Of a DNA stretch of 42,296 bases, positions 19,592 through 22,743 are shown piece after piece. Under the pieces are notes generated by a model that was given only the letters and a program-made list of their open reading frames with translations, ran no database searches and was not told the DNA's origin. Within the stretch, counting starts at the first letter, position 1. Each line of letters starts with the position of its first letter. The DNA is from Nitrospiraceae bacterium (GTDB lineage: Bacteria > Nitrospirota > Nitrospiria > Nitrospirales > Nitrospiraceae). The position numbers and the translations under genes are program-made. The stretch spans positions 1-42,296 of the forward strand of contig SYGV01000135.1 of assembly GCA_005799365.1 (NCBI GenBank). Direction: 5' to 3'.

Positions 19592-21008
19592 TCAGGAGTG
19601 CCCCCTGATGTACGCGTCAATCCGCTTGTAGTCCTGCAACCCGATCTGCTCGTCCTTCAACAGGGTCAGGGCCAGGCGCTTGAGCCAGTAAATGTGATGA
19701 TGGTACCGCTTCGAAGCTGGCTGGTTGGGCATTACCTTGAAAGCTTTCACCGCCCGATCCACGGAATACAACACGCGGTGCACCAGATAGTCTCGGACAA
19801 ATTGTGACGAGAGGGTAAAAATGGCGAACAGCAACGACACGTACGTCCCGATGCCAGCCAAGGTGTTCGGATTCACGAAAAACGGCGGATTGTGCGTGTA
19901 GAACCGCGTCGCTCCTTCGTGAAGCGTGTAGCTGAGATCCTTCTGCGGATCCATGCCAGCCAGCTTGGCGTAGTTGAGCGGGATACCTTGCAGAATGTCC
20001 TGTGCGTTGCGGTCGACCTTCGTGGCGATTGTATAGGCTTCGAGATCACTCAGGTCGGTGGACGCCACCAGGATCGTGTTGGTCCCGATGGTCAAAATTT
20101 CATGGGATGCGTCCTGGAACGTGGCGCCGGGAATCATGATCTCCACCAAGAAGGGATGGAGCATCGTCAACCCCTTGGCATGCTGCACCCGCAACAGACG
20201 AAACTCCTCATCATGGCTCACCAGCATACTCACCGCACCAATTTTCAGACCCGAAAGGAAGAAGCCCACATCGATTTTTCCCTCTTTCATTTGCTGGGCG
20301 GCCTGCTCGTAATCCAGATCGTCCCCCACTCGCTCCACGGCAATCCCGTAATGGTCCAGCACCAGATGGGCAAGAAATGCCGTCGCGCTACCCTCCGGAC
20401 CAAGGTACGTCCTGGTCCTGGGTGGAATGTCGTCGACATCGACGATCTCGAGACTTTTCCTGGCCACAATGTGGAGCGGTGACTTGTAGAGCGGCATGAG
20501 GGCCCGCATGCGGACTTCCTTGTGCATGCCCTCCTCCGTTACCGGCTCGGACCCGATCGGCAGCTTGCACTCGCTGGTCCCGGTGAAGTGCAAGGGTAAG
20601 CCGTCTTCGGCAAAAGCCAGTTGCCCCAGCCCATGGTCGATGTAAAAGAGATTTTCAAGCGCCCCGCAGGTTTCACGAAACGTGACGTTCGGCACGATGT
20701 TGAAGTGCAGAAAGCGTTCCTTTGGGCCTGGCCGGTTCAAGGCCTCGACCAGGCGGTCCGCAACGACATCATAGCCCCCCCCCCTTGGGCTCGGTGAACA
20801 AATAGTAGTCCATCTTCGCGCGGTGGGTTAGCTCAATCCCGGCAACGACCATTGGCGCCATGAGTAGGACCAGAATCAACAGCCGACGATTGCCAAGAAG
20901 GAGGCCACCGAGGAATGACCGCCGCGCAAACCGCCGATAGGCCAAGGCCATGCGCCTGATCCAACGATAAATGACCAACCATCCGACTGAAGGTATCTGA
21001 AACACCAT
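19592..21008 (-). pseudogene. TAXI-family TRAP-type solute receptor, split by a frameshift at a G10 tract
   Basis: Two minus-strand frames join into one protein. The 5' frame (ATG 21008, GGAGAT upstream) has a basic N-terminus, a membrane segment (LLILVLLMAPMVVAGIEL) and MDYYLFTEPKGGG, then stops after ten G (plus-strand C10 at 20775-20784). With nine G it would continue YDVVADRLVEALNRPG into the long frame 20740-19592. That frame has TAXI-type binding-domain text (GQLAFAEDG, YLGPEGSATAFLAHLV, ALMPLYKSPLHIVARKS), then a C-terminal membrane segment (YVSLLFAIFTLSSQF) and a basic tail. Restored length is about 471 residues. The protein would be a membrane-anchored periplasmic ligand-binding subunit. 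No TRAP permease gene lies beside it. Phase variation, recent loss or a homopolymer miscall are all possible. Confidence 0.8.
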
Positions 21009-21050: not shown

Positions 21051-21254
21051 GTCGAAATGCGCAAGGATTGCACGGGATTCTGGGGGACAATAGCGCCGGC
21101 CACCGCTCAAAACGGTGCTCCTCCATCTTTTTTTTTATCTGCACTCTCATGTCGTTGGGAAAAGTGTCCGATAAGGGAATCTGCCAGCAATCTTAGGCCA
21201 GCATCGTAGACACCTACAGCGCAACCAGAGGGGGATATCGTGAAGGCTAGACCA

Positions 21255-21282
21255 TTGACATATTAGTGTGCATGGCAATAAT
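21255..21282 (+). promoter_or_regulatory. near-consensus sigma-70 promoter facing a gene-free segment
   Basis: TTGACA (21255-21260), a 16-bp spacer and AATAAT (21277-21282, 5 of 6 to TATAAT). It points rightward into about 660 bp with no convincing open frame. The -35 is a perfect consensus; only one other promoter in the window matches better overall. Confidence 0.6.
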
Positions 21283-21288
21283 AGGTGG

Positions 21289-21948
21289 CTTCGGGCTGCC
21301 TATGCCCGCAGGCGCCTGGGTTCCGGACGTCGATCCGCCCAAGAAGGTCTGGCAAAGAAAGGCGGCGCCAAGAAGGCCAAACCGGATTAGGTCTTGGCGA
21401 GCGACAGGGTGGCCTATCCAAGACGGACACTGTGCTGTCTGCACGATCCACTTAGCGCGTGGCGGAAGCCCTGCCTTCCATACCCCCCCTCCTGATGCGG
21501 ATGAAGGGCCGAGCATGCTGGAGCATGCATCAGGGCCGTTTCTGCTCAGCCGTTCCTTTGTTTTTCCGACACCATCCTTCCACCATTGGTGCGGGGCTTG
21601 GCAGGCGCCTGAGCCGCCCATCGCCGAAAGGCGTCAGACATCTTTGCGCGTAGCGCACAGCCCCTTCCCTTATTGAAGGTGCTGCGGGGTGGTGGCAAGG
21701 GCGAGCAAACCACGCTCCTGCTCTTCGCCCTCCCTTTTACCCACTGATGCGGGCCGGCATGAAGCCCGACTTTGACTATGCCGGGGCGGCGGGGACCCAC
21801 CCGGCATCCTGAGCGGGAACGCTGGAACTGACCAAAGCACCGCAGTCTGCGACCGCAGCTGCGGGAATTCCAGAAGGCTTCCACTCAGGACTGCCGTGGA
21901 AGGGGTGCCGCGAGAGGCACGGAAGCGGAGGGTCTCATGCCATCCCGC
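21289..21948 (+). ncRNA. candidate structured non-coding RNA (hairpin-rich gene-free segment)
   Basis: The interval 21009-21948 lacks a convincing gene on either strand. From the promoter at 21255 rightward there are many perfect inverted repeats. GTCTTGG 21391-21397 pairs with 21418-21424; CCTGATGC 21491-21498 with 21527-21534. GGGGCT 21593-21598 with AGCCCC 21659-21664 closes a domain holding a CGCC-GAAA-GGCG tetraloop hairpin (21622-21633) and TGCGC-GTA-GCGCA (21645-21657). AGGGCGA 21698-21704 pairs with 21725-21731; CGGGC 21750-21754 with 21764-21768; ATGCCGGG 21778-21785 with 21800-21807; CTTCCAC 21878-21884 with 21896-21902; GTGCC 21905-21909 with 21916-21920. I do not recognise RNase P RNA, tmRNA, SRP RNA, 6S RNA or a group II intron core. 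No clear terminator was found. Decayed genes are the main alternative. Confidence 0.35.
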
Positions 21949-22743
21949 TCACTCGCCGACCCGCACCAGCAACCCCTTTTCTTTGCAGATGTTGAACGTC
22001 CAGTGAAAGACGCCGATGATGGTCACGAGGTAGAGCAGGTTCAGACCAACCGCCCAGCCGAGATGCGCGACCGGGAGCGATCCCCCGCTCAGCACCCCGC
22101 GCATGCCCTCGAACACATGGGTCGCCGGATTGGCCCAGGCGACGGCTTGCAGCCACTTGGGAAGGATGTCGATCGGATAGAAGACGCAGGAGATCGGTTG
22201 GAAGAGAAACACCATGCCCCAGGCCAGCACTTCCGCCTCCTGGCCGAAGCGCATGATCAGCGACGTCGTCAGCACCCCGATGATCCAGCCGGTGACGATC
22301 AGGTTCACCACGAAGGGGATCAGCGAGAGCCCGATCATGAACACATTGTAGGAATAGAAGAAGTAAGCGGCGGCCACCATCACGCAGGAAACCATCGCCA
22401 CTTTAAACACACTGAGGGTCATGGTCGCCGCGAGAAACTCGCTGGGCTTCAAGGGACTGGCGAAGAGGTTCATCAGGTTTCGGGACCAGATTTCCTCCAG
22501 AAACGAGATCGTAATCCCCTGCTGGGCGCGAAACAGGACATCCCAGAGGATCAACGCCCCGAGGAAAAAGGTCACGACACCGGGCAACTGGCCCTGAAAC
22601 TTCATCAAATAGACGGTGATGAAGCCCCAGACAACGAGGTCCAGAAACGGCCAATAGAAAATTTCCATCAGCCGCGGCAGGCTGCGCTTGTAGAGGAACA
22701 GATGCCGCGTAATCAGGGCCTGGATGCGGTGAATTTTCATCAT
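21949..22743 (-). CDS. ABC-2 type transporter permease
   Basis: 264 residues from ATG at 22743 (two ATGs in a row). Six or so membrane segments with the ABC-2 layout: an N-terminal cytoplasmic helix (IQALITRHLFLYKRSL), FYWPFLDLVVWGF, VVTFFLGALILW, a conserved amphipathic loop with ISFLEEIWSRNLMNLFASPL and PSEFLAATM, then FLFQPISCVFYPIDILPKWLQAVAWANPATHVFEGMR, the classical ABC-2 motif before the last segment. It pairs with the ATPase encoded 77 bp upstream. Substrates of such pairs are lipids, polysaccharides or drugs; the class cannot be resolved from sequence. It shares a transcript with a hexaheme cytochrome. Confidence 0.9.
   Translation of the reverse strand: MMKIHRIQALITRHLFLYKRSLPRLMEIFYWPFLDLVVWGFITVYLMKFQGQLPGVVTFFLGALILWDVLFRAQQGITISFLEEIWSRNLMNLFASPLKPSEFLAATMTLSVFKVAMVSCVMVAAAYFFYSYNVFMIGLSLIPFVVNLIVTGWIIGVLTTSLIMRFGQEAEVLAWGMVFLFQPISCVFYPIDILPKWLQAVAWANPATHVFEGMRGVLSGGSLPVAHLGWAVGLNLLYLVTIIGVFHWTFNICKEKGLLVRVGE

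Follow-up and report, generated by a model that had tools for sequence, protein, structure and literature searches.

The window, that is, the whole stretch of 42,296 nucleotides that was analyzed, belongs to a 1.63-Mb draft genome of a Nitrospiraceae bacterium that is 77% complete, and the relatives of this genome within the searched set are Nitrospira-type MAGs. The segment of interest (21255-21948) is bordered by an NMT1-like gene on the left and by an ABC-2 type permease gene, which is accompanied by an ATPase gene, on the right. The initial annotation had proposed the segment as a candidate structured RNA driven by a near-consensus promoter. The features identified at the locus were the following:

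19592-20740, minus strand: NMT1-like gene, the left neighbour of the segment; a short upstream ORF reaches 21008
21240-21414, plus strand: remains of a small gene for a lysine-rich secreted protein (~88 aa), recognized by alignment with intact genes of the same genus
21255-21282, plus strand: sigma-70-like match TTGACA-16-AATAAT, fortuitous and inside the pseudogene
21483-21632, no strand assigned: conserved intergenic stretch, common in part to genomes G001, G003, and G022, its right end touching a second dispersed repeat family
21698-21731, no strand assigned: local hairpin seen in the sequence, outside the element and on the side away from the host gene
21753-21944, plus strand: the dispersed mobile hairpin, matched by the covariance model over 21751-21946 (173.9 bits, E 2.2e-34)
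21816-21882, plus strand: conserved apical core of the element, GGAA..CTGGAA-CTGAC..hairpin..GGAAT-TCCAG-AAGG..TTCC, identified by alignment and common to Patescibacteria copies
21949-22743, minus strand: ABC-2 type permease, the host gene (Pfam PF01061, E 3.4e-13), with its stop codon 4 bp from the end of the element

The segment is a mosaic rather than a single RNA gene. Outside the hairpin element it is composed of a decayed small protein gene and ordinary intergenic remnants. The initial annotation was accurate in that the segment holds no convincing ORF and that its inverted repeats exist as described. It did not prove to be one structured unit: the stretch 21285-21750 folded like dinucleotide shuffles (-186.6 versus -187.8 kcal/mol, z 0.20), and only 21751-21946 was far more stable, with z values of -4.45 and -5.51 on the two strands. 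In the middle stretch, a second dispersed repeat family (about 180 bp, 77-84% identity, containing ACTGTTTGAGGCCG) was encountered, with copies in G001, G003, G005, and G011 (L035:2173-2360, L287, L288, L289, and L294); its edge adjoins the 21516-21632 block of the window.

The proposed promoter hexamers at 21255-21282 are real and rare by chance, as they match 11 of 12 consensus bases where 0.1 such matches were expected in shuffles, but they lie within decayed signal-peptide codons. The stretch 21240-21414 could be aligned to the beginning of a small gene that is found in three genomes of the same genus (76-82% identity in G001 and G002) and that encodes MKRTIGMLVCMAVLGGFGLS..., a short, lysine-rich protein of secreted appearance. 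In the alignment, TTGACATATTAGTGTGCATGGCAATAATAGG of the window pairs with TTGGTATGTTGGTGTGCATGGCAGTGTTGGG, and the hexamers correspond to the codons of IGMLVCMAVLGG. The window copy is frameshifted, with two bases inserted after the start and one base missing further on. Additionally, the methyltransferase gene found downstream of the small gene in G001 and G002 (Pfam Methyltransf_25 in G001) is missing from the window, where 110 bp correspond to about 1.4 kb of G001. On account of the frameshifts, the lost methyltransferase, and this shortening, the left part was identified as a deletion-scarred pseudogene; decayed protein genes, initially named as the alternative, were thus the right reading for 21240-21414. 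The pseudogene sequence is not included in the dispersed repeat.

The element is an imperfect palindrome of about 190 bp (192 bp in the window, 197 positions in the model), G+C-rich at about 65%, with no convincing ORF and no coding capacity. A consensus derived from 26 copies formed an end-to-end hairpin of 54 pairs. Among 105 copies aligned by fitting to the covariance model, 93.8% of the cells were paired and double-sided changes occurred in 44 of the 54 pairs, and double-change cells numbered 922, compared to 271.5 in shuffles and no more than 154 in controls with slid partners. The 26-copy alignment, which was blind to structure, gave the same verdict for the end-to-end hairpin (172 double-change cells versus 52.6). 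Terminal inverted repeats were present, as the terminal helix was 91.4% paired in the 105 copies and showed double changes in 10 of 10 pairs. G-U exceeded A-C combinations, an imbalance that would mark the active strand, by 174 to 78 on the model-fitted alignment, but the excess was weak in the structure-blind counts (68 versus 54, and 39 versus 20). In contrast to the end-to-end hairpin, the separate stems initially listed at 21751-21767, 21778-21807, 21878-21902, and 21905-21920 gained no support, with 24 double-change cells compared to 19.8 in shuffles among the 26 copies. Accordingly, the structured RNA candidate stands as to a covariation-conserved structure without an Rfam family, but only for the last ~190 bp, with a different fold, and as a multi-copy mobile element.

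Two size classes were distinguished, of about 197 and 179 nt, the short class lacking the central second hairpin. The outer stems differ in sequence among copies and yet stay complementary. An origin of these stems as pre-existing host hairpins was rejected, since one and the same outer stem (GGCGGAGGCATG..CATGCCTCCTTGTGG) recurs at different loci within a genus. The boundary is sharp: complementarity between the ends is 97% at a conserved G-C pair, drops to about 50% over the next three bases, and is at chance level farther out. Direct repeats of 3-8 bp, which would indicate a target-site duplication, were not in excess in the flanks relative to shuffled flanks. The element was also considered as an intrinsic terminator, which was discarded as no terminator-like site was found. 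Like Rfam families, it has a conserved secondary structure supported by covariation, but the Rfam check suggested at the outset matched no family at either gathering or relaxed thresholds, apart from a chance mir-9191 hit at E 3.7. No tRNA or tmRNA was found.

Five copies were identified in the window genome with the covariance model. Copies were present in 30 of 61 searched genomes, all within the window's own family of Nitrospira-type MAGs, and none was detected in the 24 genomes that represented three other families of the same order. The counts per genome reached at least 26 and may be underestimates, since 41 candidates per genome were scored. The exact apical-core pattern occurred in more than 114 stretches of GTDB genomes, almost all of them Nitrospira or Nitrospirota, with a few in Patescibacteria (Chisholmbacteria, Kerfeldbacteria, and Yanofskybacteria) and one labelled Pyrinomonadaceae. 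In Patescibacteria, the core is located near the apex of long hairpins that have no sequence relationship in their outer stems, and the core model detected one to six copies in such genomes. The Patescibacterial distribution was sporadic, as only 5 of 287 genomes of one phylum were positive with the core model, and single cases may reflect binning errors. Plasmid and phage collections contained no match to the element. Pattern matches in viral contigs were dismissed as a chance match to phage coding sequence, as they were near-identical copies of one sequence and lacked the flanking palindrome.

The position of the copies relative to genes was determined from codon-scored gene calls; these replaced greedy ORF calls, which had placed false genes on the antisense strand, among other places across the host permease. 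An opposite-strand gene lay on the 3' side of 68 copies; its stop codon was no more than 50 bp away in 49 of these and no more than 10 bp away in 25, compared to 3 of 34 copies within 50 bp in the mirror arrangement (two-sided sign test of 49 versus 3, about 1e-11, some of the sites being related). The host genes, which by eye from sequence we take to be gatB, trpS, truA, lipA, secA, ilvD, ychF, rtcB, sucC, purQ, gcvP, and others, are diverse housekeeping genes with no common function. On the side of the element that faces away from the gene, 29 of 98 copies had a strong hairpin, compared to 5 on the gene side, and about 21 of the 29 had the terminator-like form GGCGACAGGC-CGCTTnnAA-GCCTGTCGCC-TTT. 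This arrangement puts the element after the stop codon and before the terminator, a position that should belong to the transcribed 3'UTR, and the 21698-21731 hairpin of the window is possibly a degenerate form of this terminator-like hairpin. The hairpin family has variable stems and a conserved CGCTTnnAA-type loop (L031, L009, L080, L093, L074, L095, and about 15 others), and similar hairpins were observed behind genes without the main element (L242 and L243).

Orthologous sites in congeners, located via the 3' ends of five host genes, revealed a variable occupancy. The element was present in G002 only at the gatB site, in G002 and G003 at the site of a beta-lactamase-like gene, in G001 and G002 at the lipA site, and in G000 only at the site of a TPR gene. 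At the ftsX-like gene, G000 had the long class and G002 the short class. The presence and absence at these sites, in five genes and four congeners, indicate that the element moves, while no clean filled and empty pair with both flanks intact was obtained among them. Similarly, G001, G003, and G022 have the permease gene but no element at this site. The copies of G002 and G003 at the beta-lactamase-like gene share the same outer stem and differ by seven double-compensated inner pairs, while in G000 the outer stem alone remains (GGAGGC-CTAT-GCCTCC), which looks like the loss of the palindrome's centre.

Several further observations concern individual copies. A short end piece in inverted orientation at L238 and an outer-stem-only scar at L244 are probable remnants of the element, and they suggest deletion of the palindrome's centre and inversion. 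The orthologous copy L298/L299, in G001 and G003, was 93% identical compared to 80-81% in neighbouring aligned stretches, hinting at constraint or conversion. Two near-identical copies lie 1.1 kb apart near a repetitive-protein gene (SANPFDPDSTSNQFG repeats) at L018:380-1674, and two copies at the same distance, one of them adjoined by a RelE-like gene, were found at L008:1502-2828. A short hairpin (CCGGGTACCCATTGCT..GCAATGGGTGATGAG) was found nested in the element at L071, L083, and L154, from at least two genomes, in each case at the same position of the 3' arm. At L084 and L183, a different hairpin repeat of about 65 bp (GGCGCACG..GAATAA..GTGCGCGCCGCC..GGCGGC) was inserted directly after GAAGG, with an inverted copy upstream in L183. 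A group II intron had been suspected at these two loci from a GTGCGAC-like sequence, but Rfam found none, and the insert is this short hairpin repeat.

With good confidence, 21753-21944 is interpreted as belonging to a family of non-coding, mobile palindromes that are dispersed in the genomes of Nitrospira-type bacteria. The element probably spreads through folded single-stranded DNA and lies in mRNA 3'UTRs. One strand forms a long, imperfect hairpin whose apical core is conserved and whose outer stems are complementary, and a trans-acting recombinase or transposase recognizing this folded strand could spread the element passively, which would fit the lack of a target duplication. Insertions would survive between stop codon and terminator, where the 3'UTR presumably tolerates them. 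An inserted copy would then be transcribed with its host gene as a 3'UTR hairpin, and this hairpin may alter mRNA decay or translation termination, effects that have been reported for ERIC and REP.

Alternatively, the hairpin may be a functional 3'UTR module that is kept for mRNA stability, termination, or translation, so that the orientation bias would reflect selection. The fixed orientation and the spacing of 0-50 bp behind stop codons are consistent with such a role, as are the terminator-like hairpin that often comes next and the orthologous pair that is 93% identical compared to about 80% in nearby aligned DNA. Ribosome stalling by REPs within 15 nt of stop codons has been reported (PMC12306157), and the orientation of ERIC affects mRNA stability (PMC2229807). 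However, the element varies in presence at the same gene even among congeners, the strand asymmetry favours, if anything, the strand opposite to the mRNA, and the host genes share no function; this explanation was considered possible but less likely than not.

The mobile element was also compared with known repeat classes. Bacterial MITE-like repeats include ERIC/IRU, Correia/NEMIS, RUP, and YPAL (reviewed in PMC2229807). Like them, the element is under about 200 bp, non-coding, dispersed, and mobile, with ends that pair into a long stem-loop, and it would likewise be transcribed with neighbouring genes, as MITEs often are (PMC2229807). Unlike the A+T-rich MITEs with TA ends, it is G+C-rich and lacks TA ends, shows no detectable target duplication, occurs in one orientation behind stop codons, and has outer stems that are replaced by compensatory change between subfamilies. 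Similarly to REP, BIME, and REPIN sequences (PMC3733652, PMC12306157), it is palindromic, intergenic, and mostly downstream of coding regions, often near stop codons. In contrast to their units of 20-40 bp, it forms a single hairpin of about 190 bp, and no GTAG or CGTC tag was seen by eye at its ends and flanks.

A REP-type element mobilized by RAYT, a Y1 HUH transposase, would account for the palindrome, the location behind coding regions, and the missing target duplication, and Y1 proteins were encoded in all five tested Patescibacterial or unassigned genomes with a core copy. However, the flanks retrieved for the Y1 loci, which extended to about 1.5 kb at most, contained no core motif, occurrence did not correlate with Y1 in the window's family, and the Y1 search in the copy-rich genomes G001, G003, G007, and G013 gave no match at all. 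The association with RAYT was rejected as unsupported, and together with the differences in size and tags this leaves mobilization by RAYT unlikely. The element thus works like the MITE and REP class yet fails tested features of both. No description of it was found in the literature searched, which was covered incompletely, and its novelty is provisional; as a best reading, it is a previously uncatalogued, new REP/MITE-like mobile hairpin.

In integron attC sites, the end of a gene is followed by an oriented imperfect palindrome whose structure is conserved more than its sequence. The element shares this geometry directly behind the stop codon, as well as the stronger conservation of structure, and an attC-like recombination site that acts as a folded single strand would match it. 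Its outer stems vary freely, however, the GTTRRRY/RYYYAAC core sites were not recognized by eye in the alignment, and the copies are dispersed behind housekeeping genes rather than in cassette arrays, which makes an attC-like site very unlikely. Finally, a dedicated regulatory RNA gene transcribed from the 21255 promoter, in keeping with the near-consensus hexamers and the strong conserved fold at the far end, is highly improbable, as the promoter aligns with signal-peptide codons, the 470 bases from promoter to hairpin fold like shuffles, the repeat excludes the pseudogene, and the hairpin recurs beside unrelated genes, five times in the window genome and at least 26 times in a relative.

Beyond the mobile element itself, a broader proposal is that the copies belong to a new class of 3'UTR hairpins that are mobile and fold as single strands, with a core common to Nitrospira-type bacteria and scattered Patescibacteria (GGAA-AGC-stem-CTGAC..GGAAT-stem-AAGG-TTCC), inserted in one orientation behind stop codons by a non-Y1 machinery, with compensating outer stems, and acting on host mRNA. 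This proposal is tentative and, as a whole, rather doubtful. The locus also demonstrates that reading intergenic DNA as a promoter plus hairpins can make a pseudogene and a repeat look like a single RNA gene. The element represents a large family of structured mobile elements that had gone unannotated in nitrifying and related bacteria, with very clear covariation, and its strict orientation behind stop codons would have to be explained by targeted insertion or by selection acting on mRNA 3' ends.
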